Positions 5,881 to 52,735 of a DNA stretch of 64,000 bases are shown piece after piece. The stretch is from contig JAHLKD010000044.1 in NCBI GenBank assembly GCA_025526935.1, forward strand, positions 1 through 64,000, read 5' to 3'. A program made the translations under genes and the position numbers. How positions within the stretch are numbered: the first letter of the stretch is position 1; each line of letters begins with the position of its first letter. Under the pieces are notes generated by a model. It was not told the DNA's origin. It did not search any database and saw only the letters and a list, made by a program, of their open reading frames with translations. Origin of the DNA: Cladochytrium replicatum (taxonomy: Eukaryota > Chytridiomycota > Chytridiomycetes > Cladochytriales > Cladochytriaceae).

Positions 5881-5968
5881 TGTCAGCAGGCTGAGCATTG
5901 TAGACACTAGCAAAATGATCAGCATATTTGGCTAACGATGGAAGATCGAAATCTAAACTAAGGATGGC

Positions 5969-7168: not shown

Positions 7169-7463
7169 CATGGGGAGTTCTTTTTTTTTGAACTTCATAA
7201 TATGTATTTATTGTCCAACCAATACATATCACCCGCTGGTGCAAAATCCAAATACAAGTGTAAAAATACACGTAAATTGGCAGCACATGGGGAGCCGTGC
7301 GAGCCGTAGGAAAAGTAAAATGTTTCAAAACACTAAGGCATATCCAAATCAACAAAAGCAGACAAGATACAATCAGGAGCTGGAGACAAAAGTAACTCAT
7401 AACCAACAGTTTGACCAAATGCGGTTAAGTGCACGAAGAACAAGAACCCACTGGGAAAAAGCA
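7169..7463 (-). mobile_element. LINE-A, 3' end only (copy beside tRNA-Leu)
   Basis: Antisense LINE-A 3' region from the T-run through the end of ORF2 (the last residues read FVDLDMP) back to the sequence encoding PAFSQWVLVLRALNRIWS. Homology stops at about 7463, nine bases before the 5' end of tRNA-Leu. The 5'-truncated end faces the tRNA gene. Confidence 0.9.
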
Positions 7464-7472
7464 AGTTGCAGC

Positions 7473-7555
7473 GGGGAGATGGCCGAGTCGGTCTAAGGCG
7501 CCACGTTAAGGCCGTGGTTTCTTCGGAAGCGTGGGTTCGAATCCCACTCTCCTCA
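7473..7555 (+). tRNA. tRNA-Leu (AAG)
   Basis: An 83-nt class II tRNA without intron. Acceptor strands are GGGGAGA and TCTCCTC with discriminator A. The A box is TGGCCGAGTCGG. The anticodon stem CCACG/CGTGG encloses the loop TTAAGGC, giving anticodon AAG. The variable arm is TTTCTTCGGAAG and the T arm is GTGGG-TTCGAAT-CCCAC. All stems pair, with one G:U in the acceptor. It looks functional. The LINE-A fragment ends nine bases upstream. Confidence 0.96.
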
Positions 7556-8489
7556 CTTTGGCAAAATGCTTTGCAAGAAAATAGAAATAGCTCTTCTAAG
7601 AGCAAGGCTGCTTAGTGTATGTTAACAGTAGAATTTACATTTACTACCATTGTGCAGTAACATGTGTAAGGTAACCATAGAACATATATTTACTACCATC
7701 TGTGCAGTAACATTTGACTACTTATGCCAATTGTACCAGGTCCACTCTCAACCCAAATTGTCGTTAAACGTAATTGTGATGGTGGATCGCAATTACTTCT
7801 GCTCAGTGCAGATTTACTCTTTCTATCCTTCCGTTTACGATAAGTTCTGTCTGCCATCTATCCCGATCATACCAGTTTTCCATGCCTTTCCATCTTTCCA
7901 TTACCATTTCCAGCTCATTTAAGCTGCACATTATCTTCATGAAGAGATGAGCATCTACATGGGAACATCCCATGATTTCCCATTTCGCGACAGTGTTGCG
8001 TAATATGGAAGAGCTTTACCGTGATGAGCTTTCCTTCTGACAATTGATACGAACTGAGTTGGGTCATGAGGTTACCCTGAGAATGTGGGAAGGTGAAATC
8101 ATGAGAAATCGTGAGCTGATTAGATAGAGTTTGTCAGTTAGTTACATTCAGTTCCATCTAATATTTGCTGTTGCAAATACAGTGTGATAATGAGAATACG
8201 ATATTACTATCATTTTGCTGACAATTTTCCAACGAATCTGAGAGACGTGGCTTGCAAGTGTTTGATCTAACTTCCTCTCTGCTGATCTTTAGCACTCACA
8301 CCTTTGTTGACTGTTCACAGATGCGAAGAATGGCAAAATCCAGATGAAACAGATCACCAAAATAGATCTGCTGAATTTTTTTTTATCTGTCATAAGTTTT
8401 AAAGAGCACAGACTGTCGATCAACGAGCACTGAAGACGCGCCAATGCAGATACTGGTAAGACCGAGAATGAAAATTACAACCAATCAGC
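7556..8489. other. No gene recognised
   Basis: AT-rich sequence with no frame that looks coding. A short imperfect duplication (TTTACTACCAT, GTGCAGTAACAT) occurs at about 7639 and 7690. Nothing else was seen. Confidence 0.6.
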
Positions 8490-33744: not shown

Positions 33745-34300
33745 CCTGGAGGGTCAGGGTCAGGTACGGGTTTCAACCACTTTGGGTCTGGGTATACCAC
33801 TCCTACCCGCAGTGACCTGGCGGGTGCCTGGACAAACACGACCAAAAATAAGGATTCAATTTGGTTGCCTCTGAAACCTGGACCCGACCCGGACCCGCCG
33901 AAGCTTAACCATGACCCTGTCCGTTTTGCGTTTTAGCTTGAACTAGAAGAAGGTGAAACACAATCTCGATTGTGTCGTCTTGGAAAGTGTCCGCATGGAC
34001 AGAAAGTGCAGCTCTCAAGGTCTGTTGTGGATAGAAAAAGTTTATTACAAAACCTCAATTGTCATCTTGGAAAGTGTCCGCGTGGACAGAAAATACAAAT
34101 GGGTTCCTTCTATCTTTTCTGATGAGATCGGGTTTTACACAGGTCTAAAGCTCGACCCGATAAGGTTTTGCTTCTGGACCCGACACACAACCTGGATGCC
34201 ACCGAAAAACTAAACTTTCCTGAAAACCTGCCTATCAGTTTGGGTAAATTTTGTCAATGGACCCGAACCTGACCCAGAAGACCCGAAAACCTACTGAGGA
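33745..34300. repeat. Fold-back type repeat, copy 2
   Basis: Matches the repeat at 5969-6500. The part from about 33915 to 34300 (GTCCGTTTTGCG..., TTGGAAAGTGTCCGC, ATGGACCCGAACCTGACCC) is in the opposite orientation to copy 1. The terminal part at 33750-33835 (GGGTCAGGTACGGG, CTACCCGCAGTGACCTGGCG) is in the same orientation as in copy 1. The terminal segment has therefore flipped relative to the rest. Confidence 0.6.
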
Positions 34301-34314
34301 CCACAAAGGCTGAC

Positions 34315-34487
34315 ATGTGTAGTGGGGTCACGGCCAGCAAGGGCAGTCCTGACAGCTTCTGTGCGAGATTCAGCGCTAAGCGTGGGGAGACTCTCAAGCA
34401 CACGGGCACAGGCATTGGCAGCAGCAGCAGCATAAGTGCGTGGACCCGAGGTCCACATGGGGCAGGTCGACTAGAGGGGCGAAGATA
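34315..34487 (-). mobile_element. LINE-A ORF1 fragment
   Basis: Antisense match to LINE-A 47325-47465: GGGGTCACGGCCAGCAAGGG, GGCATTGGCAGCAGCAGCAG, GTGGACCCGAGGTCCACATG. It carries only one copy of the GTCGACTAG unit that is expanded in the 46-kb copy. Confidence 0.85.
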
Positions 34488-34813: not shown

Positions 34814-35118
34814 TTTTTTTTTTTTTTTTTTTGAATGTTATAACATGTATTGACAATGCTTAATCAGTACATGTCACCCACGTGTACTTCAACCAAGATT
34901 TGGAATCTTCCGTACTTGGGGAGCCGTGCGAGCCGTAGGAAAGAGGAGCGAAGGCAATGGCGAATCGAAGGAGGTGTGGCGCGGTACTTGCACGTGACAC
35001 GATATTGCGAGAGATATATTTCGTAGGAAATTCGAATCCAGTCCCCTATAGGATTCGAACCGCGGAGTTTAGCTTCGAAAAGTCGCATTCGTAGTGACTG
35101 AGCCACTATGAGGTCACA
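34814..35118 (-). mobile_element. tRNA-derived SINE, copy 3, full length
   Basis: On the minus strand this runs from the tRNA-like head (TAGTGGCTCAGTCACTACG, B box GGTTCGAATCC) through the body to the tail and A-run (T-run at 34814-34832). It is very close to copy 1, so relatively recent. Its 5' end meets the A-tail of the LINE-B at 35119, in the same orientation. Confidence 0.92.
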
Positions 35119-36723
35119 ATTTTTTTTTTTTTTTAACAATATTATTATTTATTTTGCACATACAATGCATAACAAAAAACAACACCCAAAGTGCCTTACA
35201 AGATGGTCATGGACCAGCACATAGGGAAGCGCGCGCAGCATAAGGAAAAGCAACAAAGCAAAACAGAGAATGTAAACTCAAACCTGTGGCTACCCGTCAG
35301 ATACTGCTAAGGTGCCAAAAAACAGGTGAGTAATAAATAATAAAAAAGAAACCGTTAAAGATCCACAAATGCAGGGCCAAAGAGGGAGTCTGGAGGAGAA
35401 ACTTCTAATGGCAGACCCATACAGTGAAGCCAAATCTTATGGAGACAACGAAAAACTAGATACCACGGTGCAAGATTCACTGGGTTGACAATGCGAAGTG
35501 GACGAAGGCTATCAATTGCAACATCAAGTGGAAGTTGTAAAACAGGAACAGGAACAGGAGGCAACAATAGGTCAAGACACAGACATTCTGAAACATGAGA
35601 TCTAGAGAGAGTTGCAGTGCGGCAGTGACAACACTGCTTGCGGGGGTGATAAAACAAACGTCCAAGGCGATACTGCAGAAGCCTCAAGATTGACGAAATA
35701 GGGAAGCATGGAGGAGCAATTGCTAGCGCATGAGGGTGTGCAGATGCAAGGGGAGCAAAGCTAGCAGCTATAGAACCATAGGCAGATGAGGCTACTTGGT
35801 GAAAGTGATTTGCGATAACATCAGAAGGTTTGGGAACTACAACATTTGCAGCCGGGAAGAGGAAGTGATTGTTGAAAGGGACAGGAGAACAACGAAAGTG
35901 CTTTCCCTGGTGAAGAAAGAATGACAACGTAGAGTGAACCATATCAGGGGCATCATCATCCAGCCAACGTTGAAACATCTGAAACTGCAGATATTGAAGC
36001 CGAAACTGAAGGTCAGGAAACTTAAAAAACAGTAAAACCCCAGCAATTGAAGTAGAAAATGAAAGGCGAAGAAATCGACACAAACATTGGTGAATAAAAG
36101 TCCGAACTGGTTTGCAAACAGCAACAGAGGGAAGAATAAAATATAAACCAAATTCAAGCGTAGGTCGAATAAAAGACAAAAACAAATGACGAACCACAAC
36201 CAGAGAATGAGAACTAAACATCCTTGAAAAAGAAAGCAAAGCAAAAGAAGCTGCGCGCGCTTTGGCAAGTCGATGGGAAATAGTCAGTGACACATCAAAT
36301 CCAGTATCTCCAAAAAAGCAACCCAGATAACGAAATGAAGGCTTGACAGGCAGAGTTTGACCATGAAGAAGCAAAGGTGAATGAGCAGGAATAGGAATTT
36401 TTGTGAGAATCACAGACTTCAAAGGAGCAAAAGAAAAACCACGAGCTTGGGCAAACTGGTCACAAACAGAGAGAAGAACCTGCATAGCATCCAAAGTAAG
36501 TGCAAACAAGGCCAAATCACCTGCAAATAAAAAAGAATTATATTGTGGTTTGGCAGGATGAAAGAGTGTTATAGGTGGGGCAAATGGTCGGAGGAGCCCA
36601 GGTAGAGGATCAAGAAAAGTGATATAGAGAAGTGGACTGAGAACAGAACCTTGAAACAAACCTCTAAACAAATCAAAAGCATCTGAAAAACAATTTACAA
36701 GAACCACTTTGGAAGAACAAAAA
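35119..36723 (-). mobile_element. LINE-B, 5'-truncated, beside tRNA-Asp
   Basis: A T-run at 35120-35136, the LINE-B 3' UTR, then an unbroken 450-residue frame (36707-35355) covering the middle and C-terminal part of reverse transcriptase, including LFAGDLALFA where other copies have FADD, and the C-terminal Cys/His motif CCHCRTATLSRSHVSEC. It is nearly identical to 44735-46300. Homology stops at about 36723, four bases before tRNA-Asp. The FADD to FAGD change removes a catalytic Asp. Confidence 0.93.
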
Positions 36724-36727
36724 AATG

Positions 36728-36799
36728 TCTCAGTTAGTATAGTGGCTAGTATCTCTCCCTGTCACGGAGAAGACCCGGGTTCGATTCCCGGACTGAGAG
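36728..36799 (+). tRNA. tRNA-Asp (GTC)
   Basis: A 72-nt tRNA with acceptor TCTCAGT/ACTGAGA and discriminator G, A box TAGTATAGTGGCTAG, anticodon loop CTGTCAC giving GTC, and T arm CCCGG-GTTCGATTC-CCGG. All stems pair and there is no intron. A LINE-B truncation point lies about four bases upstream. Confidence 0.96.
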
Positions 36800-36814
36800 G
36801 TGTGGAAGCAAATC

Positions 36815-36982
36815 CTTGTGCAGGACGCAAGAGTGCCCAGAGAAATTGTGGAATGCAGCAGTTAAGTACTTTAATGAGTTTACTTTTCGATTTCTTCCCT
36901 TGTACAGGACGCTCGATTGCACAAAGAAATTGTGGAATGCAGCAGTCAAGTACTTTAATGAGTTTACTCTTCGATTTCTTCT
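36815..36982. repeat. Two-copy 84-bp tandem duplication
   Basis: CTTGTGCAGGACGC at 36815 returns as CTTGTACAGGACGC at 36899, with the core GAAATTGTGGAATGCAGCAG in both. The copies differ at a handful of positions. It lies just downstream of tRNA-Asp. No function seen. Confidence 0.8.
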
Positions 36983-37183
36983 TAAGGGGGTAATCTGGTT
37001 AGCCGGTATCGTCTTTAGTGGTCGCCTTCCATCATTGGATCCTTTGGGGGAGTGTAATTCTCTGTTTTTACAAATATGAAGTCAACTGTCATTTTTAAAA
37101 ACCACGATCGAATGCACATATCACCCATAACCCAACCCCTCCACTCCCTCTAAAAGCAAAATCATATCATAACCTCACTGCTG

Positions 37184-39962
37184 TCACTGCTCAAATAGCA
37201 ACCTCCAGCAGCTCTTCGTCTTGCTATAAACACTCGCCCGTCCCGTCGTCGCCACACCATCCTCCAGATCTAACCTGCCATAAACCCCCTTTTCTCCAGC
37301 GCCTTCTTCCCCAATCACCCGCTCTCTCAGCTTCGAGTTTGTCACGCTCGCCACGCTGGGCCTGCGAAGAGCCACAGGACCATCGATCACAGACGAAGTG
37401 TCCGAGTCAGTGTCGCCCTGGGCATCGCCGCCCATCCCGTTCAACAGCTCCAGAGTCGTCGACGCGGCGGGTACGCGAGCGAGAGACCTATAGGATCGGA
37501 ACGCGTTTTTCCGTCCACGGAGCCAATGGCATGACCGGGACCGAAACCGGCACAAAACTGCGGCAGCCATTGCCGGAGCCGCCGCTGGCGTTGCGGTCCG
37601 TGCAGCAGCCTTGGGTTTCTCTGGTGCAGGTGCAGCCTGCATCACCGACTGCAAGTTGTCCAGCGCGCCATAACTAACCCTACGCCAGCCGCCTCCTTCA
37701 CATTCATCTGTTCCCTAACTCACGCCTCCACACTGTCGTTTGGAAGCCCCGATTCGCGTCGTCTTCCTCGTCAAGCACCTCCCGCACAGCCACGATATTG
37801 AACCGTAGCTCCTTGTCCCGAACCATATACGCGATCCCGACGACCCGTCGGGGACGACCTCGCCCCAGCCGTACCCGTCCAACAGGTTCGCAGGCACCTG
37901 CGAAGTCGACAGCGTCCAGTGCGACGAGAGCGAGTACGCCGGGTCAAGGAACAGCGCCGTCGATTCCCATGGGTACTGCAGCAACCGCAGCCCGAGCAAG
38001 TGTCGATCGATGCCATTGCCCTGCAAGCACGTGCTCATATACGCCGACTGCGTCTCGATCGCCGTTCGCGCTGCGTCGTCTTTGTGCTTGATGGACGACT
38101 CGGGGTCCTCCATGACCCGCACAAAGGCCACGGATTCGAGGGACACGCTTCGGCACGTCTCGGTGCGTCCCCACGCTTACCGACGCATGCCGGCAGACTC
38201 GTAGGTAGGGGCGCTAGGTGCCGTACGTGCGGTAGAACGCAAGCTGCATCGCCATCTGCACAAAGGCGTCCGGGGAGCATTTGAGCGTCTTGATCGTGTC
38301 CTTGCCAAAATTGGTAAACTTGAGAACGGGAAAGTCGTTGCGCTTGGATGCTTTTGTGAAGGAGACGATCGCACATTCGACCGAGGCCACGACAGGAGGA
38401 GACACGAAAAAGTCGAGGCGGGCTGGCTCGAGAAGGAGTGTGTTGAACTGCGGTTCAGAGGGAATGCCACCCAGCGTGCTACATTGATTAAAACAATCAA
38501 TGTTGGTTCACCGGCCATTAATTCATTCACATGAGTACACTCACAGCTCAGAGATGTACTCGCACAATCTGGACGTGGGCGTCGCGTCCATCATCGAGTG
38601 CTCTCCATTAAACCCAACCTTTCCGTGGTGCGAAAGAACCAGTTCACGTGTGATCTGACGGTCTGTGAAGAAAAAGACGGGAAGTAAGTTCGAAGGAACT
38701 TGACTGTCCCGAAAATTGAATAGTGAGTTTCAGACTTAGCAAGCATTTTTGATCTTGAAATACCCACTGATGTTGAAATACTCAACCTGCGTTTTCAAAC
38801 AAAGCCAACTTCGTCCACTTGCGTTGCAGCACAAAAAACGAAAGCCCTACCACTGGGTATCTAACCTGCGAGCACCGCGACACCTGGACCGATGTCCGCG
38901 CACAGATCGTGGGCAGCACGGTCGTGAACAATGTTTCTGGGAGAACGAATGCGCAGTTGCTTGAGCAGCTCGATTCCGCGGCGTTTTTGGTGTGCCTGGA
39001 CGACATCAACCCGGTCACGCGGGAAGAGATTGGGCGGGCATTGCTGGCACGGCGATGGAAGGAACGGGCGGTTCGACACGTCGCTCCAGTTCATTTTGTG
39101 TGAAAATGGCGACATGGTTTCCTTCTTCCTTAGTGAACACTTCGACATAGTCAGACGGTCTGTGAGGGATACGGCAGGTGTTGAGCATGAATGCCTACTG
39201 GCGCATGCACTGGGGCACATTCTTGGCCGCCCAGTCGGGAACCAGAGATTCTCTGAAATTGGGGCAATCAACATGGGACGCATCAATGTCCAGGTAGACT
39301 TACGTTTCAAACATGTGTTGAAATTGTCTGGCACTGTAAACGATGCTAGCAGCGCGAGTACACAGCATGTAGATCAAAGTCGATAGCTTTGCAGATTTCT
39401 GGCCAAATACAAACGGAGCGGCCGCAACGGCTCTCGGCGAGGGCCCGAGCCCACCGATGGGTACATCCGGGAACAACAAAAAGTAGTTGACGTTGAGCAC
39501 AACTGTTCCCTCGTAATCCAAGTATGCGTATTCGTTCCACCAGTCGATTAGCCACGAGTTGCAGGTCGGAATGACGGGATTAGATTTGTCGGGTACTGCC
39601 TTGATTACGAAACTGCGACACTTGGAGACGGCAGTGGTGCGCTCCTGATCGGATTCGGAAGATGACGTGCACCAGGTTGAAGGGATTTGGAGGTTGCGTT
39701 AGTCTGGGAGTGGATAACAGGATGGGCATTGCCGATCCCTTTGCATCTTCGGCTCGCTTGAGGAAAAGTTGCTGGAGCTCTTCGCCTTGACCGCCAGGCT
39801 TAATGGACTCCTTGACAGCGGCGACGGTGTTATTGAACTCATCGTCAGTCGGGAATGGGGGGTGGTCAGGTACTTTGCGCAAGACTCCTCCAGGGAAGGC
39901 AACGGCAGCAGTGGCTGGTCGTGGTTCGTCCAGGTGAGATTGGTACTCGCGGGATCAGGCAT
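37184..39962 (-). pseudogene. Carnitine O-acetyltransferase, with an inverted internal segment
   Basis: Carnitine acetyltransferase moves acetyl units between CoA and carnitine in peroxisomes and mitochondria. Minus-strand blocks in order are LPLPSLEESCAKYL (39905), FPTDDEFNNTVAAVKESIKP (39850), WNEYAYLDYEGTVVLNVNYF (39525), PDWAAKNVPQCMRQ then FMLNTCRIPHRPSDY (39220), the catalytic-His motif VGFNGEHSMMD (38620), IKTLKCSPDAFVQMAMQLAF (38290), LDPAYSLSSHWTLSTSQ and YGWGEVVPDG (37900). The block between them, GYLTCEHRDTW...AAFLVCLDD...LQFILCENG, is on the plus strand at about 38830-39110. Further lesions: a frameshift at the C6 run 39857-39862, TAG at 39195-39197, an extra base near 39046, and a frameshift at 37844-37846. 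The C-terminal exon is poorly conserved. Probable start is Met at 39962. Confidence 0.85.
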
Positions 39963-40254
39963 GTCAGCAAGTAATGGCAGCAAAGCCGGTCATCGTTTAA
40001 AAGTGGTAAGCGGAGTAAATTTTGAGTATGGTTTTGAAAAATTTGAATTCTCCGACAATTGAAAAACATACCGTGATATCACACGGTTCACACAAATTGT
40101 GAGCAGTCTGGAAATATCTTCCTGTTTATCACTTGTGTTATTCCAGCCACAGTGCAAAACAAACATTAGCCACTTCTGGCTAATGCAGTGAGTTAGTAAG
40201 TTAGTTTTGAGTGATTCAGTTGTGGATTGCTTGTGCCTTTTATTATAGGCTCGA
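39963..40254. other. No gene recognised
   Basis: AT-rich sequence upstream of the carnitine acetyltransferase start, so it would hold its promoter. Nothing distinctive was seen. Confidence 0.5.
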
Positions 40255-40745
40255 GCGGATACCTATGGTGGTCTAAGTTCTGTTCGTCCCTATGGTCTAA
40301 GTTCTGTTCGTCCCTGTGGTCTAAGTTCTGTTCGTCCCTGTGGTTCAAGTTCTGCTCATCACTTTGCGAGAAATTTTGTTCATCACTTTGGTCCAAGTTC
40401 AGCTCATCACCATTGCGCAAGTTGTGTTCGTCATTAGACAAAAGTTCCGATCTTTGTCCAGATCACATGCTGCAAGTTCTGTCCTCACTATGGTTCAAAG
40501 TTCGGTACGTCACGATGGTGCAAATTCTGTCCCTCACTATGGCTCAAGTTCGGTATTTCACTATGGTGCAAGTTCTGTCCCTCACTATGGCTCAAGTTCG
40601 GTATGTCACAATGGTGCAAGTTCTGCTCACTATGGCTCAAGTTAGGTATGTCACAATGGTGCAAGTTCTGCTCACTATGCTCAAGTTCGGTATGTCACAA
40701 TGGTGCAAGTTCTGCTCACTATGGCTCAAGTTCTATTTGTCGCTA
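40255..40745. repeat. Minisatellite, AAGTTCTG-based
   Basis: A tandem array of a degenerate unit of about 24 bp. It starts as TGGTCTAAGTTCTGTTCGTC repeats (about 40268-40340), drifts to CACTATGGCTCAAGTTC variants, and ends with three near-identical 40-45-bp higher-order units (40590-40740). One minus-strand frame reads through the first half as repeats of DEQNLDHR, but the unit drift argues against a gene. Confidence 0.8.
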
Positions 40746-40985
40746 TGTCAGAATATTGATGTTGGATGGAGGAGTCAGGGGACATATGATGACACTAAAA
40801 ATTTGACAAATACTTGCCCAAGCCCAGCAGCCTGTTTGCCAAATAGGTTGGTTCCATTTGTATTTGACAAATTGATGCCCCTATTTGCTCAAATCACGTT
40901 TGGGCAAATCAGGGAGCTACCCTAGGTTTGAATTGTGCAAATAGGTTCAAATAATATTTGACAAATCAAATAAAGAATTTCATTT
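40746..40985. repeat. Short dispersed repeat, copy 2
   Basis: Matches 34600-34805 (TTTGCCAAATAGGTTGGTTC and neighbours) with extra AT-rich sequence at the 3' side. It lies between the minisatellite and the Copia remnant. Confidence 0.6.
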
Positions 40986-43120
40986 GTGGCAGACCTGCCT
41001 TGTGTGGATATTCCTTCGAAAAACAAATCCGCCCAACCCTCGAAGTTCAAACAATTCCTTGCAGAGGCATCCAGCCTTCACTCCTGTCCTGTTGACACGC
41101 TTATCCTTAATAACGGCTTGGAGATTGCTTCTATATGAAAACTCACGAACACCACAATCCAAATCACCCCCAAAGCTCATATTGAAGAACTTTGCACTGA
41201 CAACTGTGGAGAATATGTCAACAAAAGCATGACCACAATCCTTCGTGATCATGGAATACAACATCACCCAACAATTTCCCATACAACGCAACTTAACAGC
41301 GCCACCAAATGCCTGAACCGAACACTCCTAGAATCTGCTGAGTCAATGATGTTCTGCTGGTCTCATCTTACTGGGTTACACAGTTGATACTGCTGGATTC
41401 ATTCATAATCGCCTTCCCACTGCCTCCAATCCAGACAAAAAGATGCCATTCGAAATGTGGGAAGCTCACATACACTCATCGCTCCCCGTGATGTTGCCTT
41501 TGACAAAACTCGGTTCTGGAAGCCGCATCCTGATGAGCTGGATCTCGATCTTTCACCACCACTTCCTTGTAAACACCTTCGGAGAACTCCAAAATCAGAG
41601 GCAAACGTACAACCCTCACTCAACTCTTGCTTCCCTCTGTTCCCTCCCCGATGCAGACCTTGGCCCCGATGAAGAACTCACGCCCACTTTAATGTGTGCA
41701 CTCTTTGCCAACATCGACAACATTATCGATTACAATGCTGCACTCCTCACTCCCAATGCTTCCAAGTGGAACAAGGCAATTAAAAACAAAGTCGCCATGA
41801 TGTTCCACTTCAGCGTCTTCTCCGATCCATGTGATCTTCCTTCAGGCCAAAAAGCACTAGGCGCCAAAGTTATTCTTCGCCTCAAACGTGGCCCTAACCG
41901 AGAAATCCTTTGATTCAAGGCTCGGTTGGTCATCCAAGGTTTCAATCAGATAAAAGGAATTGACTTCTTTGCACATTTGCTCGCTTAGTTTGATTCTCTA
42001 CTGTCCGCACCTTACTATCCATAGCGGCCCGTGATGACCTTGAGCTTCACCATATGGACATGCAAACAGCATTCCTTGGTACAGACTTAGCTGGAGAAGA
42101 GATTTATGTTCGCCTACCCCCAGCATTCACTGCACTCACCACTAACAGTGGTGACATTGTACGACTCTACAAAAGTCTATATGGGCTGAAACTGTCCCCT
42201 CGGTACTTAAACCAAAAACTAGACACCGCACTCATCAACGGAAGCTTCTCCAAATGTGTCAGTGAACCATGTCTTTATCACAAACGCACCGACACAGCAA
42301 TCATCTACATTGCTATTACATTGACGATCTCATCCTTGCATCCAATTCTGTCGACCTTCTTACCGCTGCTAAAGACTAACTTCATTCCAACTTCTCCATG
42401 AGAGACCCGGGTGACCTCTCGTACTTCCAGGGAATGACTGTTGAACGTAACCGCGCTGCCTGCATCCTTTTTCTCCATCAACGCCAATACACGCTCAACC
42501 TTCTCTCCAACTTCAAAATGTCAAATTGCAGAAAGCGGTCAACTACCCTGTCACCACTGGCATTTTCCAAAGAGATGTCCCCAACTACCGCAGACGAGAG
42601 TGCAGCAATGAAATCTACACCCTATCGTAGTGCAGTTGGAGGTCTCCTTTACCTTGTCTCTGGCACTCGCCCCGACTTACTTAGCCTTTGCTGTAAGTGA
42701 TGTTGCTCGCTAGGTGAAAAACCCTGGTCAGGAACACTGGATGGTAGTCAAGCACATATTATCTCCAAGGCACATCAAGTTTCAGGATTCAATACGGAAC
42801 GGACTCACCACTCTCTGCCTATGCAGATCCCTGGGCATCCTGTCGCGACGATCGACATTCGACCACTGGATTTATCCTTACGCTCAGGGATGGTCCTATC
42901 TGCTGGCAGTCACGCAAACAAAAGACACCCCCTCTTTTGACTACTGAAGCAGAATACGAAGCTGTCTTGGCCACGACACAAGACATCATCACCAGTCACC
43001 ATATTTATGTCAAACTGGGTCAACCTATTCCTCGGCCCATCAAGGTTGCATTGCTGCCGTCAATGACCCCAAATCTTTCCCCAAACTGACTAACACATTG
43101 ACCTTGAATCCATTTCTTCC
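40986..43120 (+). mobile_element. Copia-type LTR retrotransposon remnant
   Basis: Pieces of a Copia polyprotein in order but in changing frames. Integrase at about 41190-41380 reads ELCTDNCGEYVNKSM and LNRTLLESAESMMF. Reverse transcriptase at about 42040-42330 reads DMQTAFLGTDLAGEEIYVRL and LYKSLYGLKLSPRYLNQKLD. The RT/RNase H connection at 42398-42690 reads LSYFQGMTVER, STPYRSAVGGLLYLVSGTRPD. RNase H is only traceable near 42800-43050. No LTRs were found at either side. It is heavily decayed and a different lineage from the element at 53422. Confidence 0.88.
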
Positions 43121-43395
43121 CTCATTGCCCTGCCAATAATGATATCCGGCTTCAGTTTCCTCCCACAACAATGACTGACTAAGAACGTTTCACACCCCGA
43201 TTAATCCTTCGGGTTTAAATGATTGTAGACATGGAAGCAAATCATTATTAACTAACCCGAACTAACCCTAACTAACCCGGGCTGAAGATAAAAATATTTG
43301 CCACACATACTCCAGAAATAGATGTAGACACCCGCAGTGTTTATCTCGGGAAAACGGGAACATGTACATAGTGCAAAAGCGCGAATCGCACAATT
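43121..43395. other. No gene; short CTAACCC-like run
   Basis: AT-rich sequence. At 43246-43281 there are three imperfect CTAACCC units (CTAACCCGAA, CTAACCCTAA, CTAACCCGGG). They resemble the TTAGGG telomere repeat but are too few and irregular to call. Confidence 0.5.
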
Positions 43396-43466
43396 TGCAA
43401 AGGCCGGGAATCGAACCCGGGTCTGCCGCGTGGCAGGCGGCAATTCTACCACTGGACCACCTTTGC
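43396..43466 (-). tRNA. tRNA-Gly (GCC)
   Basis: A 71-nt tRNA on the minus strand: acceptor GCAAAGG/CCTTTGC with discriminator A, A box TGGTCCAGTGGTAG, anticodon loop CTGCCAC giving GCC, and T arm CCCGG-GTTCGATTC-CCGG. All stems pair. The LINE array starts 36 bases upstream of its 5' end, on the higher-coordinate side. Confidence 0.97.
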
Positions 43467-43502
43467 CTCGAAAATCTTCTAAATATAAAAAAGGAAAATT
43501 AT

Positions 43503-44228
43503 TGCTTGTCACAATGGTCTGATTGTTCCTATGCCTGCTGTGCTCCCACTTCATCCGTTGATGTTGCATTTTCAGTCTTTAGCTGTTGCGCATAATGGAC
43601 TAATTGCAGTTTCGTCTGCCCCTGTCCGCAATTTGAAACTTCGCCACCCTTTGTTGCTACCCCCACACCAACATCTCCCAACAGTATGTCATCTCCCAAC
43701 AGTATGTCTTCGTTTGTTCCTGCTATATCGGCTTGGCCGCCTGTTTCCAAACCCCCAACCTTATTGTAGGAACTGTCATGATGCCCCTGAAGTGTCGCGT
43801 GCCCATGTCTCTGTGTGTCTACATTTGCGTGCTAGTTTGTCTGCTAGTTTTGATTTAGGCCAGCCTGACGATCCCCGCCTACCTCTTGACATTGCAATTG
43901 ATATGCTTTCACCACGGCCTTTTTATCCTTCCCCTGCCTTTTCCCAGTGGGTTCTTGTTCTTCGTGCACTTAACCGCATTTGGTCAAAGTGTCTTGGTTA
44001 TGAGTTAGTTTTGTCTCCAGCTCCTGATTGTATCTTGTCTGCTTTTGTTGATTTGGATATGCCTTAGTGTTTTGAAACATTTTACTTTTCCTACGGCTCG
44101 CACGGCTCCCCATGTGCTGCCAATTTACGTGTATTTTTACACTTGTATTTGGATTTTGCACCAGCGGGTGATATGTATTGGTTGGACAATAAATACATAT
44201 TATGAAGTTCAAAAAAAAAAAAAAAAAA
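43503..44228 (+). mobile_element. LINE-A, 3' third, beside tRNA-Gly
   Basis: Matches LINE-A copy 1 from 2409 to its A-tail: VLPLHPLMLHFQSLAVAHNG, the Cys/His motif CRNCHDAPEVSRAHVSVC and the end FVDLDMP, then the 3' UTR hairpin and A19. It has a small duplication (HLPTVC twice). It points away from tRNA-Gly, and LINE-B begins right at the end of its A-tail. Confidence 0.94.
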
Positions 44229-46310
44229 AGAGAGCAGAACTTTATCGCCCAATTTCAGCTATTCTTGCTCCATTGTTCTTGCAACTTTCTCAGTCCATTT
44301 TTCGCAGTAGTCTTACACCCACTTCATGGAATCTTGGGCTTTTGCACCCAGTTTGGAAGCAACGTGGTACGCTTGGTGATATTACTAATTATCGCCCCAT
44401 TACTCTTTCGTGTGTTGCCCGAAAAATTTTTGAGCGAGCTTTGTTGCCACATCTTTATTCTGCTATCACGTCTCAACGCCCACTTGATGCTGCCCAAGCG
44501 GGATTTCAGTCACACCGCTCGGGAATGGAATGTGTTTTTGGTCTTCAGGCATGTATCTCCCGTGCGTCTAATGCCAAGGTTCCTTGGGTTGCTGGTTTTT
44601 TAGATATTCAAGCAGCTTATGACACCACAAATCGTGCAATTCTTTGGGCTGAGCTTCTTTCTAGGGGAGTACCGTTGCCATTTGTTTTTGTTTTGAAGTC
44701 TCTGTTTGATTTTTGTTCTTCCAGAGTGGTTGTTGCAAATTGTTTTTCAGATGCTTTTGATTTGTTTAGAGGTTTGTTTCAAGGTTCTGTTCTCAGTCCA
44801 CTTCTCTATATCACTTTTCTTGATCCTCTACCTGGGCTCCTCCGACCATTTGCCCCACCTATAACACTCTTTCATCCTGCCAAACCACGATATAATTCTT
44901 TTTTATTTGCAGATGATTTGGCCTTGTTTGCAATTACTTTGGATGCTATGCAGGTTCTTCTCTCTGTTTGTGACCAGTTTGCCCAAGCTCGTGGTTTTTC
45001 TTTTGCTCCTTTGAAGTCTGTGATTCTCACAAAAATTCCTATTCCTGCTCATTCGCCTTTGCTTCTTCATGGTCAACCTCTGCCTGTCAAGCCTTCATTT
45101 CGTTATCTGGGTTGCTTTTTTGGAGATACTGGATTTGATGTTTCACTGACTATTTCCCATCGACTTGCCAAAGCGCGCGCAGCTTCTTTTGCTTTGCTTT
45201 CTTTTTCAAGGATGTTTAGTTCTCATTCTCTGGTTGTGGTTCGTCATTTGTTTTTGTCTTTTATTCGACCTACGCTTGAATTTGGTTTATATTTTATTCT
45301 TCCCTCTGTTGCTGTTTGCAAACCAGTTCGGACTTTTATTCACCAATGTTTGTGTCGATTTCTTCGCCTTTCATTTTCTACTTCAATTGCTGGGGTTTTA
45401 CTGTTTTTTAAGTTTCCTGACCTTCAGTTTCGGCTTCAATATCTGCAGTTTCAGATGTTTCAACGTTGGCTGGATGATGATGCCCCTGATATGGTTCACT
45501 CTATGTTGTCATTCTTTCTTCACCAGGGAAAGCACTTTCGTTGTTCTCCTGTCCCTTTCAACAATCACTTCCTCTTCCCGGCTGCAAATGTTGTAGTTCC
45601 CAAACCTTCTGATGTTATCGCAAATCACTTTCACCAAGTAGCCTCATCTGCCTATGGTTCTATAGCTGCTAGCTTTGCTCCCCTTGCATCTGCACACCCT
45701 CATGCGCTAGCAATTGCTCCTCCATGCTTCCCTATTTCGTCAATCTTGAGGCTTCTGCAGTATCGCCTTGGACGTTTGTTTTATCACCCCCGCAAGCAGT
45801 GTTGTCACTGCCGCACTGCAACTCTCTCTAGATCTCATGTTTCAGAATGTCTGTGTCTTGACCTATTGTTGCCTCCTGTTCCTGTTCCTGTTTTACAACT
45901 TCCGCTTGACGTTGCAATTGATAGCCTTCGTCCACTTCGCATTGTCAACCCAGTGAATCTTGCACCGTGGTATCTAGTTTTTCGTTGTCTCCATAAGATT
46001 TGGCTTCACTGTATGGGTCTGCCATTAGAAGTTTCTCCTCCAGACTACCTCTTTGGCCCTGCATTTGTGGATCTTTAACGGTTTCTTTTTTATTATTATT
46101 ACTCACCTGTTTTTTTGGCACCTTAGCAGTATCTGACGGGTAGCCACAGGTTTGAGTTTACATTCTCTGTTTTGCTTTGTTGCTTTTCCTTATGCTGCGC
46201 GCGCTTCCCTATGTGCTGGTCCATGACCATCTTGTAAGGCACTTTGGGTGTTGTTTTTTGTTATGCATTGTATGTGCAAAATAAATAATAATATTGTTTA
46301 AAAAGAAAAA
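44229..46310 (+). mobile_element. LINE-B, 5'-truncated, reverse transcriptase frame open
   Basis: Begins inside reverse transcriptase (AELYRPISAILAPLFLQLSQ). An uninterrupted frame runs to 46078: TNYRPITLSCVARKIFERAL, AGFQSHRSGMECVFGL, FLDIQAAYDTTNRAI, LFRGLFQGSVLSPLLY, the catalytic SFLFADDLALFA near 44905, and the C-terminal CCHCRTATLSRSHVSEC. The endonuclease and ORF1 are missing, so it cannot move by itself, but the open frame and intact FADD suggest recent insertion. The 3' UTR ends with GCGCGCTTCCCTATGTGCTG, TTATGCATTGTATGTGC and AATAAATAATAATATTGTTT. Confidence 0.94.
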
Positions 46311-46411: not shown

Positions 46412-47110
46412 ATGCTGCCTGATGCGCCGCATGCCACGCCGCCCGCCGCAACCCCCGCTGTGCCCCCTTATGGGCTTTCTGGTGGCACCGTCATTTTTGA
46501 GGCCCGTTTGCACCCCCGTGCCTCTTCTGTTGAAAATTCTGCTCGACAGCTTCCACTCTCCGCTCCTGCCTCTCCAATTCACTGGGCTGATGATGTGAAT
46601 ATGGGCGAGGATGAAATGCCGAATCACGTGATTTCCGATCACGTGACCAGCGCGCCTGCTGAACATGAATTGCCCCGTGGTCGCTCCCGTTCTCGTTCCC
46701 GATCACATCTGCCCGGCGTCCAGGTTCTTGCTGCTGTGGCTGCTCCCTCGAGTGTTGCATCTCTGGCCGATCTCCGTGTCGTTCTTACTCAGATGCGATC
46801 TGTTTGTGCAACCTTCGATCCGTTGGCGATGCTGGATCCTATGCTTGTACATTTGCCGAGGGACACTCCTGCTGAATTTTTTAGTGTTTGTCGTGATATG
46901 GCCGAGGATCCGGTGGGTCGCTTTGGGAGGCTGCTGCCTTCGCCTTCACCTCCGGTTGCCCCTGTCTCCCGCCATGATGATGTGGCTACGCCTGTGTGCC
47001 TTTCCCCTAGACAACTGCATGGTAATCCTCTAATTCAGGACGATCTTGGGAACTCTGGTGCTCCTGGCCCTCGCCCCCCGTCTAGTCAACCTGCCCTGCC
47101 CCCCGTCTAG
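46412..47110 (+). CDS. LINE-A ORF1, N-terminal part
   Basis: 232 codons starting MLPDAPHATPPAA, up to the tandem-repeat block. It is Pro/Ala/Ser-rich with an Arg-Ser stretch (RGRSRSRSRSHLPG) and a more ordered middle (SLADLRVVLTQMRSVCATFD, LVHLPRDTPAEFFSVCRDMA). ORF1 proteins of LINEs bind the element RNA. The frame closes inside the 20-bp repeat array, whose unit is not a multiple of three. Confidence 0.75.
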   Translation: MLPDAPHATPPAATPAVPPYGLSGGTVIFEARLHPRASSVENSARQLPLSAPASPIHWADDVNMGEDEMPNHVISDHVTSAPAEHELPRGRSRSRSRSHLPGVQVLAAVAAPSSVASLADLRVVLTQMRSVCATFDPLAMLDPMLVHLPRDTPAEFFSVCRDMAEDPVGRFGRLLPSPSPPVAPVSRHDDVATPVCLSPRQLHGNPLIQDDLGNSGAPGPRPPSSQPALPPV

Positions 47111-47330
47111 TCAACCTGCCCTGCCCCCCGTCTAGTCGACCTGCCCCCTGTCTAGTCGACCTGCCCCCCGTCCAGTCGACCTGCCCCCCGTCCAGTCGAC
47201 CTGCCCCCCGTCCAGTCGACCTGCCCCCCGTCCAGTCGACCTGCCCCCCGTCCAGTCGACCTGCCCCCCGTCTAGTCGACCTGCCCCCCGTCTAGTCGGC
47301 CTGCCCCCTGTCTAGTCGACCTGCCCCACA
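47075..47330. repeat. 20-bp minisatellite in LINE-A ORF1
   Basis: About twelve tandem copies of a unit like GTCGACCTGCCCCCCGTCTA with small variants (GTCAACCTG, GTCCAGTCG). Each unit contains a TAG in one frame, and a 20-bp period cycles through all frames. The expansion therefore splits ORF1 into two frames. Confidence 0.92.
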
Positions 47331-47983
47331 TGGACCTCGTGGTCCACGCACTTATGCCGCTGCTGCTGCCAATGCCCCTGCCCGTGCTTGAGAGTCTCCC
47401 CACACTGAGTGCTGAATCTCGTCCAGAAGCTGTCAGGACTGCCCTTGCTGGTCGTGACCCCACTTCAAATGTCAGCCTTCGTGGCCCTCGGCCTGTTGTA
47501 TTCTATCCACCGACCTCTCCGCTGCTGGTCTCCCCACCTGCTGATCTTCAGGCTCGTGTGGATGATTTGACCACTGTGTACATCAAGGACATCATGAGAC
47601 AGCGGCTCAGCTTTGTGCGGACCATGCTGAGGGCTCTCTTGGGCGATGAGGTGGTGCGTGGTATCCGCCGCATCGGTTTTGTTGGTCGCAACATTGCTTC
47701 CTTTATCTGTATTCGCTCAACTGCAATTGCTCTCCGTGCGCACTTCTCCACCCAGGAAGCTTCCACTGACGAATCAAACCCTGACTTTCTTTGCCGAGCC
47801 TCTACTTTGCCTTTGGAGCAGCGGGAGGCTGCAGTCAGGGAAGTTGTCCACAAGAGATATGCACATATCCTCAGTTCAGTTACTGATCCTGCTATTTTCC
47901 TGTATGTCCATGGTCAGCTCCCCATGGATGCTCAGGAAACTGTGCTGGACAGTGCCCGCAGGATTGCGCGTCAGCCTCGCTAA
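47330..47983 (+). CDS. LINE-A ORF1, C-terminal part
   Basis: After the minisatellite the frame is open for 217 codons to TAA at 47981. It contains a folded-looking segment, IKDIMRQRLSFVRTMLRALL, RRIGFVGRNIASFICIRSTA and LRAHFSTQEA, compatible with an RRM-like RNA-binding domain as in many LINE ORF1 proteins. That assignment is inference. The segment has no natural start of its own; it continues ORF1. ORF2 starts 14 bp later. Confidence 0.7.
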   Translation: MDLVVHALMPLLLPMPLPVLESLPTLSAESRPEAVRTALAGRDPTSNVSLRGPRPVVFYPPTSPLLVSPPADLQARVDDLTTVYIKDIMRQRLSFVRTMLRALLGDEVVRGIRRIGFVGRNIASFICIRSTAIALRAHFSTQEASTDESNPDFLCRASTLPLEQREAAVREVVHKRYAHILSSVTDPAIFLYVHGQLPMDAQETVLDSARRIARQPR

Positions 47984-47997
47984 ACCAATCTTCGTCA

Positions 47998-50750
47998 ATG
48001 ATTAGTGTTCGAGTTGGTATCTTCAATTGTCGAAATTTGAGCTTTGGAGTTCTTGATTCACTGTTTCGTTTTATGCGCGCAAATCACATTGTTTTTCTGC
48101 TCCTGACTGAAACACACCTTTTTCCTTTAGACCTGCTGCCTTCCCCAGATTTGATTTTTGACACTCGTTTTCCTCCTGGGTCATCGGGTATACGACAGGC
48201 TGGTGTGGGAGTCTTGATCAATCGCAGCTTTGTAGAGCTTCTGATTTCCGTCTCATTTCTAGTTATGGTGGCACCTCTCTATGTTTTACATTTCGTGAGC
48301 TTTTGGTTAGAGTATTATTTGACTCCGTGTGGTATTGCTCAGGACCCCTTCCTTGAAGAGTTTATTGCTTCGCTTCCTCAACATGTGGCGTCGTCTCCGT
48401 GCCCTGTTCTTTTGTTGGGCGATTTCAATGCCCGTTTTTTAGCTACTGGTGATCATTCTTCAAATCGTAGTGGTAGGTTGTTTGAGCAATTTATTTCTGC
48501 CGCTAGTTCCTCTCTAGTTAAGCACCTTCCTGCCATAACCCCACATTTTCTTCTCGCAATGGTGACTCCGTTATCGATTTGTTGTTTGTCAATCCTCTGC
48601 TTCAATGTGATCCTATTTCTTACATAGTTCATAGTCGTCTAGCCGACGGCGAGTTTATGCCTTGGGCTTCTGACCATTTTCCGGTTACAGCTGTTTTTTC
48701 TTTTGCTCCTCCCAATGCCAGCGCTCCCTCTGCTGCACCCCCCCACAAGCGCTGGGCTGCTCATCTGTTGCGTGAACCTGCTGTCTTTCAAGCAATGGAG
48801 GATGTGGGACATTTCTTTTTTGATCCCACCCTTGCTGATGTCAATGCTGCGCTCAGTCCAATTTTAGAAGCTCCCGCCTTTGCCCAAATGTCTGTGGATG
48901 TTGCACAGGGATGTATTGACTCTGCATTGGATATTATTTTGTCCTTTGTTACTTCGTGTGCTGCTTGTGTCATTGGACCCCCCAGTTTAGTTCGTCGTCG
49001 CCCTGCCCTGCCATTGTTGCCGCCATTTTTAGTGGCCTTGCGACGGAGCTACTTACTTGCTCATAAGCACTTTTTAGCTGCTTCTTCCTGTGATGATCCT
49101 GATCCTGTTTTAGTTGAGTATTGCCGCTTGGAGCGTGACCGGCTATCGCGTGAGCGTGTCAAAGCTTTTCGTACTTGGTCTCTTTCCCAGTGAGCTCGAG
49201 AGGCTTCTGGCGACAATATGTTAAGTTCTTCTCCTAGTTCTTTAACCGAGGTTAGCAAAGTTCTTTCCACCGCGCGTAGGTGTCATCAATGGCCCTCAGC
49301 TGCAAGTGGTTTATTGTCTGATCCTGCCTCTTTATCTCATTATCGCAATCACTTTGCCTCCGTTTATCAGACTCAGTTTGCACAATCCTCTGCCAATGCA
49401 GAACACGTTCGTCTACCTGCGCTGAATGATTCTGTGTCAGTTAGTGTTAGTGACTTTGTTTGTGCTATTCGTTCTTCCCCAAACAACTCTGCTCCTGGCC
49501 CAAACCATATTCCAGCTGAGTTATTTAAGCCGTTAGCTTCTAATGTTGCTATTCTTTTCGTTCAACTTTCAAACGCTATTTTCTGTTCAGGTTTGTCGCC
49601 CTCTGCCTGGAAAGCTGGCTTGTTGTTACCTGTTTGGAAGAATAAGGGTTCCATTGGTGATATTAGTCAGTACCGCCCCATTACTTTCCAATGTTGATAG
49701 AAAAATCTTTGAGCGTACCTTGCTTCCTATGCTTGTAGCTTATGTTGGTAAACTTGATCCCGCCCAAGCTGGTTTCCAGGCCAATCGTTCAGGTGTTGAG
49801 TGTGTTTTTGCATTAGATGCTACCCTTCGACGGGCTTCCCGCACTGCTCTGCCTTATTGTGTTACTTTCTTAGACATTAAAGCAGCGTATGATGCTGTGC
49901 ATAGGCCTCTTTTGTAGGAATGTCTTCGTCAATTTCCCAGAATTCCCAACCGTTTGATCTCTGTTTTGATGAGTTTGTTTGATCGTTGTTCTTCTCAGGG
50001 TGTTATAGAGAATCGTTCTTCTGATTTGTTTTCGCTTCCACGAGGTCTCTTTCAAGGTTCTGTTTTGTCTCCGTTCTTGTACTCAGTTTTCATCAATCCT
50101 TTAGCACAGCTCCTTCTTCGTGTGAAGATTTTGCTTTAGCTTCTCATTTTGTGTTTTCACCTTCAAAGTGTGCTGTGTTATCTTCTCAGCGGTTACCCAC
50201 CCCCTTGAAGCTTCATGGCTCTGCCCTCCCTGTCGAGGTTTCATTTAGATACCTTGGTCACTATTTTACTATTGCAGGGTTTGATCTTGCTGCAACTATT
50301 GATCATTGCTTAGAGAAAGCTCGTGCCTCATTGCATCTTTTTGCACCTTATGTCTCGTACTTTGGTGGGTCTGCTCCTCGTGTTGCTAGGTTGTTGTTTT
50401 TGTCTCTTATTAGACCTTCACTTGAGTTTGGTTTAGCACTTATTCGGCCTTCCACTGCTCAGCTTCAGGTACTCGAGCGTTTTTGTTATCATGCACTGTG
50501 TCATCTGTTTTCGCTAGCCCATACCACTTCGCGTGTTGGTTTGTTGCTGTTAGCAGTGACGATCCCGGCTACCTCTTGACATTGCAATTGGTATGCTTTC
50601 ACCACGGACTTTTTATCCTTCCCCTGCTTTTTCCCGGTGGGTTCTTGTTCTTTGTGCACTTAACCGCATTTGGTCAAACTGTCTTGGTTATGACCTAGTT
50701 TTGTCTCCAGCTCCTGATTCTATCTTGTCTGCTTTTGCTGATTTGGATAG
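47998..50750 (+). pseudogene. LINE-A ORF2, endonuclease plus reverse transcriptase, broken
   Basis: Starts MISVRVGIFNCRNLS. The APE endonuclease motifs are complete: the Asn in GIFNCRN, LLLTETHLF, LLLGDFNARF and ASDHFPV. Reverse transcriptase begins near 49460 (SVSDFVCAIRSSPNNSAPGP). Breaks: a frameshift near 48530, TGA at 49191, a lost base near 49690 (PITF|QC), TAG at 49915, and two deletions (50120, 50556). The last residues read ADLDR before the 3' UTR. It shows the full domain order of the family: EN, RT, C-terminal Cys/His region. Confidence 0.88.
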
Positions 50751-50885
50751 AAACATTTTACTTTTCCTACAGCTCGCACAGCTCCCCATGTGCTGCCAAT
50801 TTACGTGTATTTTTACACTTGTATTTGGATTTTGCACCAGCGGGTGAAGTATTGGTTTGACAATAAATACATATTTAGAAGTTCA

Positions 50886-52735
50886 AAAAAAAAGGATGGT
50901 TTTCTTGCTTTATTAGATTTTTAACCTTCATCTCCGGCTTCAATATCAGATGTTTCAGCGTTGGTTGGATGATGATGCCCCAGATATGGTTCACTCTATT
51001 TTGTCCTTTCTTCACCAGGGAAAGAATTTTCGTTGTTCTCCTGTTCCTTTCAACAATCCCTTCCTCTTCCCGGCTGCAAATGTTGTAATTTCCAAACCTT
51101 CTGATGTTATTGCAAATTACTTTCACCAAGTAGCCTTATCTGCCTATGGTTCTATAGCTGCTAACTTTGCTCCCCTTGCATCTGCCCACCCTCATGCGCT
51201 AGCAACTGCTCCTATTTCGTTATCTTGTATCGTCTGGGACGTTTGTTTTATCACCCCACAAACAGTGTTGTTGCTGCACTGCAACTCTCTCTAGATCTCA
51301 TGTTTCAGAATGTTTGCGTCTTGACCTGCTGTTGCCTCCTGTTCCTGTTCCTGTTTTACAGCTTCCGCTTGATGTTGCAATTGATAGCCTTTGTCCACTT
51401 TGCATTGTCAACCCCAGCGAATCTTGCACCGTGGTATTTGGGGAAGAACAAATAGCACAAACAAAGTCACTAACACTAACTGACAAAGAATCATTCAGCG
51501 CATGTAGACAAACGTGTTCTGCAGTGGCGGAGGATTGTGCAGACTGAGTTGATACATGGAAGCAAAGTGATTGCGATAATGAGATAGAGAGGCAGGATCA
51601 GACAGTAAACCACTAGCAGCTGAACATTGTTGATAACTCCTGTTAAAAACCAACCGTCTTTAGCTGTACGTAGCTAGCACAACAGCTCCAGGTTCCGCCT
51701 CTTGGCCCACTACCTGTTCTCCCAGGTGTGTGCATGTACCTAATAATCAGACAGGCTGTACACTACCCAAGCTGGTCAGGCAACCAGGGAATGCTGTGGT
51801 CAAAGACATAGGTTGGGACAAGCAAAAGAAAAACTGCTGTAACAGGAAAGTGGTCAGAAGCCCAAGGCATAAACTCGCCGTCGGCTAGACGACTATGAAC
51901 TATGTAAGAAATAGGATCACATTGAAGCAGAGGATTGACAAACAACAAATCGATAATGGAGTCACCATTGCGAGAAGAAAATGTGGGGTTATGGCAGGAA
52001 GGGCGCTTAACTAGAGAGAAACTAGCGGCAGAAATAAATTGCTCAAACAACCTACCACTACGATTTGAAGAATGATCACCAGTATCTAAAAAACGGCCAT
52101 TGAAAGCGCCCAACAAAAGAACAGGACACGGAGAAGACGCACATGTTGAGGAAGTGAAGCAATAAAATCTTCAAGGAAGGGGTCCTGAGCAATACCACAA
52201 GGAGGCAAATAATACCCTCCAACCAAAAGCCCACGAAATGTAAACCATAGAGAGGTACCACTACATTTTTTTGATTTTTTTGAAACAATATTATTTATTT
52301 TGCACATACATTGCATAACGAAAAACAACACCTAAAGTGCCTTACAACATAGTCATGGCCCAGCAAATAGGGAAGCGCGCACAGCATAAGGAAAAGCAAC
52401 AAAGGAAAACAGAGAATATAAACTCAAACCTGTGGCTACCTGTCAGATACTGCTAAGGTGCCAAAAAAATAGGTGAGTAATAAATAATGAAAAAAGAAAA
52501 GTTAAAGATCCACAAATGCAGGGCCAAAGAGAGAGTCTGGAGGAGAAACTTCTAATGGCACGCCCATATAGTGAAGCCAAATCATATGAAGACAACAAAA
52601 AACAAAACAAACTGCCCCAAACCATATTCCAGCTGAGTTGTTTAAGCCGTTAGCTTCTGAAGTTGCTATTCTTTTTGTTCAACTTTCAAAAGCTATTTTT
52701 CTTCAGGTTTGCCCCCTCTGCCTGCCACTCAATTT
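50886..52735. mobile_element. Mosaic of LINE-A and LINE-B fragments in both orientations
   Basis: Several pieces in a row. 50920-51440 (+) is the LINE-B C-terminal region (FQRWLDDDAPDMVHSILSFL, PFNNPFLFPAANVV). 51440-51640 (-) is the LINE-A region of copy 1 positions 880-1060. 51641-51790 is LTR-like. 51800-52262 (-) is LINE-A endonuclease (GRLFEQFISAAS, ASDHFPVTAVF). 52264-52600 (-) is a LINE-B 3' end with T-run. 52611-52725 (+) is LINE-A reverse transcriptase (PNHIPAELFKPLASE). All are dead. The mix of strands suggests later rearrangement or repeated insertion. Confidence 0.82.
51641..51790. repeat. LTR-like fragment, second copy
   Basis: Shares GCTAGCACAACAGCTCCAGG and CTCTTGGCCCA with 5420-5458. 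It begins TGTTAAAAACC, a plausible LTR edge. It sits between two antisense LINE-A pieces, with some LINE-A sequence missing at the junction. Confidence 0.45.

Follow-up and report, generated by a model that had tools for sequence, protein, structure and literature searches.

LINEs and a SINE in stacks upstream of tRNA genes in the chytrid Cladochytrium replicatum

Long interspersed elements (LINEs) that carry an apurinic-type endonuclease (APE) and are guided to tRNA genes by position have been described for dictyostelids (PMC5006619, PMC5911963). TRE5 of Dictyostelium discoideum is a non-long-terminal-repeat (non-LTR) retrotransposon listed as L1 (PMC5911963), and the open reading frame 1 (ORF1) product of TRE5-A contacts TFIIIB (PMC5911963, PMC5006619). 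Here we describe two LINE families, LINE-A and LINE-B, together with a passenger short interspersed element (SINE), in a stretch of 64,000 nucleotides from the chytrid Cladochytrium replicatum (assembly GCA_025526935.1, contig JAHLKD010000044.1, positions 1 to 64,000; hereafter the window) and in the rest of its assembly, where they were found upstream of 41 out of 43 tRNAs. As with TRE5, the elements lie upstream of tRNA genes in the opposite orientation, have an APE, a reverse transcriptase (RT) and an A-tail, and are found at any tRNA (PMC5911963, PMC5006619). However, TRE5 is located about 44-54 bp upstream, whereas here the distance is mostly 5-15 bp, with 31 of the 43 tRNAs at 1-17 bp. 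The host is also another one, with a guanine-plus-cytosine content of about 47%, and here a SINE obeys the same rule and the copies stack; a term search of PMC5006619 returned no mention of stacks or SINEs. By distance the nearest known system is NLTR-A of Dictyostelium purpureum, whose RT is followed by an RNase H domain. In the 899-aa frame of LINE-B no RNase H was called, RVT_1 being the only domain at E 0.1. Since neither the distance of TRE5 nor, for LINE-B, the RNase H of NLTR-A is found here, we set these elements apart from both, although they would work like them, resembling TRE5 by side and orientation and being L1-like LINEs by their APE chemistry.

There are also tRNA-linked LINEs outside amoebae, namely NeSL-1_TV, LIN15_SM and LIN25_SM, relatives within the NeSL clade that have a restriction-like endonuclease and are linked to single isotypes (Pro, Arg and Glu) (PMC4640811). 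A sequence-only reading of the window had suggested that its LINEs, if the pattern were general, would be a rare case of tRNA targeting outside amoebae; these three had already been reported, although they differ from the present ones, which have an APE and are directed by position to at least ten isotypes. Ty3 and DGLT-A likewise insert upstream of tRNA genes, at distances from a few to ~20 bp, and Ty3 targets via TFIIIB (PMC5006619, PMC7175516), but both are LTR elements with an integrase and thus of a different chemistry. Among the matches listed in our literature search (titles and abstract openings, and open-licence full texts) no tRNA-targeted LINE was described in a fungus.

Position and orientation at tRNA genes

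The window contains three tRNA genes recognized by both ARAGORN and Rfam: tRNA-Leu(aag) at 7473..7556 (plus strand, 56.3 bits), tRNA-Asp(gtc) at 36728..36799 (plus strand, 60.3 bits) and tRNA-Gly(gcc) at 43396..43466 (minus strand, 62.3 bits). All of them have a 5'-truncated LINE directed away on their 5' side: a LINE-B at 7190..7463 (minus strand, reference 4649-4924, blastn 99%) 9 nt from tRNA-Leu, a LINE-A at 35120..36723 (minus strand, reference 3347-4941, 98%, A-tail at 35120-35134) 4 nt from tRNA-Asp, and a LINE-B at 43504..44210 (plus strand, reference 4236-4924, 96%) 37 nt from tRNA-Gly. The sequence-only reading had given these gaps as about 9, 4 and 36 bp, with coordinates right within one base, and had described the truncated end as facing the tRNA with the A-tail distal, as we found in the three cases. 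Comparison of the window with single long references (LINE-A, 4941 nt, from locus L038; LINE-B, 4924 nt, from L046) gave 25 LINE/SINE matches adding up to 16,042 bp and confined to three blocks, 1-7463, 34296-36723 and 43504-52724, each with one edge at a tRNA 5' end (9, 4 and 37 nt away). No LINE/SINE match was obtained in the remaining ~45 kb with blastn at E 0.001 and a minimum length of 40 nt. For a point placed at random in the window, the probability of a facing element start no more than 14 bp away is 0.0030.

For the survey of the assembly (50.5 Mb) a covariance search provided 62 tRNA matches among the best 63 of 2278 first-look candidates, a list that is incomplete, because the window's own tRNA genes were missed. 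We sampled 41 of the 62, to which a tRNA-Thr found by ARAGORN in the flank at locus L001 and the three of the window were added (45 in total). Leaving out the tRNA-Cys of L001 (its upstream region is common to the tRNA-Thr) and L048 (a near-copy of L045), 43 non-redundant tRNAs of ten isotypes were retained, 40 from elsewhere in the assembly and three from the window. Loci L021-L031 were omitted as repeats of L032-L042, and one partial match (C116) was not included in the sample. A LINE-A, LINE-B or SINE was present in the examined 5' flank of 41 of the 43 tRNAs, the nearest one being a LINE-A in 13, a LINE-B in 21 and a SINE in seven, so that both LINE families take part as had been proposed, and the nearest copy was divergent from the tRNA in all 41. 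The nearest match started 1-14 bp from the tRNA in 27 of the 43 and within 100 bp in 36; with four full-length copies whose opening CT-run was placed by eye, 31 started at 1-17 bp (nine at 1-6 bp, the others at 7-17 bp). Against the random-point value of 0.0030, the 27 of 43 would correspond to a binomial probability of ~1e-57, to be taken only as a rough guide. Within 1.4 kb of the tRNAs, elements covered 81.3% of the 60,193 upstream bases versus 0.9% of the 60,200 downstream, and just four of the 45 tRNAs had an element match anywhere in the 1.5-2.4 kb examined downstream. The enrichment within ~100 bp of tRNA 5' ends, the fixed orientation and the excess over random positions expected from the sequence-only reading were therefore all observed. 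Its statement that every tRNA gene has a LINE on the 5' side stands for the 41 if SINEs are counted, but not for L003, which has upstream only a third, distantly related LINE family, nor for L004, with no recognised element in the examined 5' flank. Among the truncated first LINEs within 14 bp (n = 21) all the truncation points were different, and they represent therefore 21 separate insertions. The two tRNA-Ile loci L045 and L048 have nearly identical upstream stacks, indicating that one is a segmental copy of the other.

The same geometry was recovered starting from the elements. We placed the 3' ends of the best-scoring candidates, which resulted in 48 rows for LINE-B (best 40 of 381 candidates), 44 for LINE-A (best 40 of 431) and 44 for the SINE (best 40 of 136), and compared these 136 rows with 120 tRNA places (partial matches included, from the incomplete tRNA list). 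A listed tRNA was found within 10 kb of 61 rows, and in 56 of these 61 it was located behind the element 5' end and on the opposite strand (21 LINE-B, 13 LINE-A and 22 SINE rows), with ~0.5 rows per category per family expected by chance, keeping in mind that rows from one stack are not independent. Ten SINEs were 4-10 bp away from a listed tRNA.

The element families

LINE-A and LINE-B are APE-type non-LTR retrotransposons, having an RT, an APE, an A-tail and 5' truncation. The domains called in the LINEs were RVT_1 and Exo_endo_phos, and A-runs and 5'-truncated copies were present; in the window LINE-A has an RVT_1 frame at 44009-46078 and in LINE-B pieces of the APE endonuclease and of the RT fall within 46.3-50.9 kb. 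The reading frames of the reference copies are interrupted. The closest solved RT structure is that of human LINE-1 ORF2. TRE5 has a zinc-finger domain after its RT; here a CX2CX8-9HX3C pattern could be read by eye in both families, and a Pfam zinc finger was not called in LINE-B. Since the two families, both found at tRNA genes, share 47% identity in the RT and 39% in the ORF1 region, their aim at tRNAs may predate the split between them.

The SINE (~287 nt) has in the window copies at 34833-35119 (minus strand), 3120-3392 and 4536-4794 (both plus strand). Two stretches of its 3' part match the 3' end of LINE-B, and promoter boxes were read by eye in the head, although neither ARAGORN nor Rfam called the SINE heads as tRNA. 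Apart from the three genes, the tRNA-like sequences found were heads of this SINE. With a tRNA-like head, a LINE-like tail, an A-run and many copies, it is a tRNA-derived SINE. A tRNA-Phe pseudogene had been put forward, without coordinates, as a fourth tRNA with a divergent LINE-B. We equated it with a SINE head, which it most likely is, the LINE-B-like sequence being the SINE's own 3' tail; this removes it from the list of targets. The SINE copy at 35119 has on its 5' side the A-tail of a LINE-A, running in the same direction.

The third LINE family is found in the window at 3540-4179. The upstream positions 28-800 of L003 are 91% like this stretch, and the L003 copy has 39% identity to the LINE-A ORF1 over 74 aa. 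A further fragment of this family (115 nt, upstream positions 10-124) starts 10 nt from the tRNA of L016.

Other repeats were noticed along the way. An interspersed repeat occurs twice in the window, at 6047-6345 and 33912-34210, 86% alike and inverted, and also in L003, L008, L011 and L051, within LINE copies or next to them and on the 3' side of tRNAs. Three AACTAACCCG units, similar to the TTAGGGTTAG repeats at the end of L053 (see below), are found at 43250-43279, on the 3' side of tRNA-Gly, and a direct duplication of 84 nt (36814-36981) starts 15 nt past tRNA-Asp. A fragment of a Copia-type RVT_2 reverse transcriptase is located at 57996-59057, with none of the three window tRNAs nearby, and SH3 and chromo domains of the Tf2-1 type were recognised in one element. 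Among host proteins, an Rrp5-like and an Arb1-like one had their best structural matches in Rrp5 and ARB1, entries of fungal origin, which with the Tf2-1-like element points to a probably fungal host; pirin and AMPK-beta were not decisive.

Stacks and their age order

The copies accumulate in stacks in which they run tail to head, often only 0-6 nt after an A-run, and of the 85 matches lying within 1.4 kb, 83 are directed away from the tRNA. At tRNA-Leu the first LINE-B is followed by a second one (7074..7177, minus strand, blastn 96%) and then by older, interrupted LINE-A pieces (4846..6998, minus strand, 85-93%). At tRNA-Asp the head of the SINE (34833..35119, minus strand, promoter boxes by eye, LINE-B-like tail) touches the tail of the LINE-A, and a LINE-B fragment (34296..34479, minus strand, 92%) lies further out. 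The stack of tRNA-Gly is longer and continues with a 5'-truncated LINE-A (44234..46298, plus strand, 99%) with the RVT_1 open frame mentioned above and a nearly full-length LINE-B (46414..50884, plus strand) that has lost internal parts and contains a 20-nt repeat array; this array (units of 20-25 nt) extends over 47067-47327, in the 5' third of the copy. The outer block of this stack (50924..52724) is made of LINE-A and LINE-B fragments in mixed orientation (87-95%), three matches at 51437-52603 being oriented towards tRNA-Gly. The outermost block on the tRNA-Leu side (1..4794, plus strand) contains a LINE-B, a SINE, the third LINE family, two LINE-A and another SINE, directed towards tRNA-Leu in five LINE/SINE matches. 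As this block begins at the contig end, there may be a second tRNA past it, to whose stack these copies perhaps belong.

Age was estimated in 60 copies from how far their last ~100 nt diverge from the majority sequence of the family. Comparing pairs within a stack, the copy nearer to the tRNA was younger in 29, older in four and tied in 15, a result that none of 5000 shuffles equalled. Pairs of the same family behaved similarly (ten younger, one older, two tied; p 0.004), and so did the nearest and farthest copies of 18 stacks (Wilcoxon p 0.0035). A cruder measure based on the single-copy references gave p 0.002, or 0.012 minus the two stacks that hold the references. The overall correlation was modest (rho 0.27, p 0.04) and the trend uneven. 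Because nearer copies tend to be younger, new copies most likely enter on the tRNA side, between the gene and the older stack.

Explanations for the pattern

We are largely convinced that two related APE-type LINE families and a tRNA-headed SINE have their insertion point determined by the tRNA gene and pile up into stacks, the guide being probably the RNA polymerase III (Pol III) initiation complex. From the position, the orientation of the nearest copies, the involvement of both families and the SINE, the stacking and the younger-inside trend, we infer the following steps. Insertion would occur mostly 5-15 bp before the tRNA 5' end, whatever the isotype or local sequence, with the element 5' end towards the gene, and the newcomer would wedge between the tRNA and the older copies, displacing them outwards to give a layered stack. 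The A-tails, the 5' truncation and the APE and RT domains point to target-primed reverse transcription which, given the polarity, would be primed on the gene's coding strand a few bases upstream of the tRNA and extend the first strand towards it. The SINE, judging by its tail, would borrow the LINE-B enzyme. Each insertion replaces what lies past the junction, and therefore the distance must be counted from the gene. Instead of the DNA sequence, the guide would then be the initiation complex assembled at the start site, through TFIIIB or Pol III, which is the simplest candidate by analogy with the TFIIIB contacts of TRE5-A ORF1 and with Ty3. A more daring version, which we hold only tentatively and consider rather doubtful, is that the elements sense whether the gene is active and not its sequence: the APE would nick the coding strand displaced at the Pol III start, so that only actively initiating tRNA genes would be targeted and silent SINE heads would be spared.

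The lack of matches in the ~45 kb of window sequence not taken up by the three blocks looks as if LINEs and SINEs had been purged from it, and would suit random insertion followed by selection, with copies surviving only in the harmless space before tRNAs of a gene-dense genome. However, selection can fix neither a distance of 1-17 bp (31 of 43) nor a single orientation (41 of 41), the 3' flanks of the same tRNAs are almost empty (0.9%), and copies with 100% identical 3' ends already follow the pattern, so we find this scenario very improbable. Only marginally less credible to us is that each new copy of a stack enters the poly(A) tail of an earlier one, just as Zorro3 of Candida inserts into poly(A) (PMC7175516), the link with tRNAs being just a chance first landing. 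The A-run of one copy does often adjoin the head of the next, but such growth predicts the oldest copy nearest to the tRNA, the opposite of the inside-younger order found (29 versus 4 pairs), and a first landing 1-17 bp from 31 separate tRNAs would be left without explanation.

An endonuclease that recognises a DNA sequence in or beside the tRNA gene, in the manner of NeSL-1_TV, LIN15_SM and LIN25_SM, could in principle read the A and B boxes common to tRNA genes. Yet ten isotypes are targeted, the junction sequences have no motif beyond A/T richness, SINE heads with similar boxes are not used (0 of 13) and the endonuclease is of the APE type, all of which leaves sequence recognition with little chance of being right, about as little as purging by selection. 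Finally, the SINE shows that tRNA-like RNA gets copied in this genome, and the 'tRNA genes' might be retro-copies, created when the RT switched template and copied a tRNA onto the 5' end of the LINE cDNA. This would produce co-oriented pairs, while the nearest copies are divergent in 41 of 41; besides, the tRNAs are intact (56-73 bits) and single tRNAs have several elements, and we regard template switching as next to impossible.

There are also results that weigh against guidance by the tRNA gene and its Pol III complex. Twelve of the 43 tRNAs have no element start within 17 bp. Five of the 61 element rows violate the geometry: two LINE-B at C80 (G000:C80:93179-93802) directed at a tRNA-Leu 24 and 296 bp away, which either break the rule or belong to the stack of a different tRNA, two more LINE-B, C44:2851 (4.4 kb) and C76:196204 (8.9 kb), and the LINE-A C34:1857 (408 bp). 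For another 75 of the 136 rows no tRNA is listed within 10 kb; the tRNA list being incomplete, they prove neither off-target copies nor their absence. Regarding age, the median divergence is equal (0.010) at stack ranks 1 and 2, and the cruder measure is not significant within families (13 versus 8 pairs, p 0.21). Target-site duplications of at least 4 nt are weak overall (24% of 58 copies versus 15% in shuffled sequence, p 0.035), being clear by eye in a few copies (TTCGA in L006, GGCTA in L050 and GGTA in L046). Lastly, none of 13 SINE heads serves as a landing site in spite of their tRNA-type boxes (seven face a tRNA and six the tail of a co-oriented element), and two 5S loci had no element in the 235 and 1500 bp examined upstream. 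The proposal of the sequence-only reading that the LINEs target Pol III genes is thus supported for tRNA genes but not for these others, and the presence of a Pol III promoter alone is insufficient. The SINE-head and 5S results fit a requirement for an active tRNA-type complex, though neither proves it.

Concerning other Pol III genes, at L052 there are LINE matches at least 500 bp downstream of a 5S gene, and at the end of L053 tandem TTAGGGTTAG repeats, telomere-like, are found near a 5S gene close to the contig end. U6 genes were located at C106:142984-143093 and C61:254246-254355, and signal recognition particle RNA genes at C53:10615-10921 and C53:20093-20398. Two arrangements at tRNA genes deserve mention. 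At G000:C57:12325-12747 the order by place is positions 1-44 of a tRNA-Gly, a SINE and, 7 bp away, a complete tRNA-Gly; this is either a target duplication long enough to include part of the gene or a disrupted tandem of tRNAs. Upstream of the tRNA-Val of L009 (positions 209-235), past an unknown insert of ~208 nt, there is a 27-nt copy of the start of this tRNA (-4 to +23), and therefore some insertions may duplicate sequence into the gene.

These stacks provide a natural system for studying how an APE LINE finds its target without being sequence-specific, whether the aim of a LINE is passed on to a SINE through the tail of the latter, and how tRNA genes withstand the repeated replacement of their 5' flank. 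They also allow the activity of LINEs and SINEs at individual loci to be dated in relative terms. If the elements do read the state of the gene, the stacks would be a layered, datable record of tRNA gene activity, and a partnership between LINEs and a SINE would have evolved isotype-blind targeting of tRNA genes independently of the amoebae.

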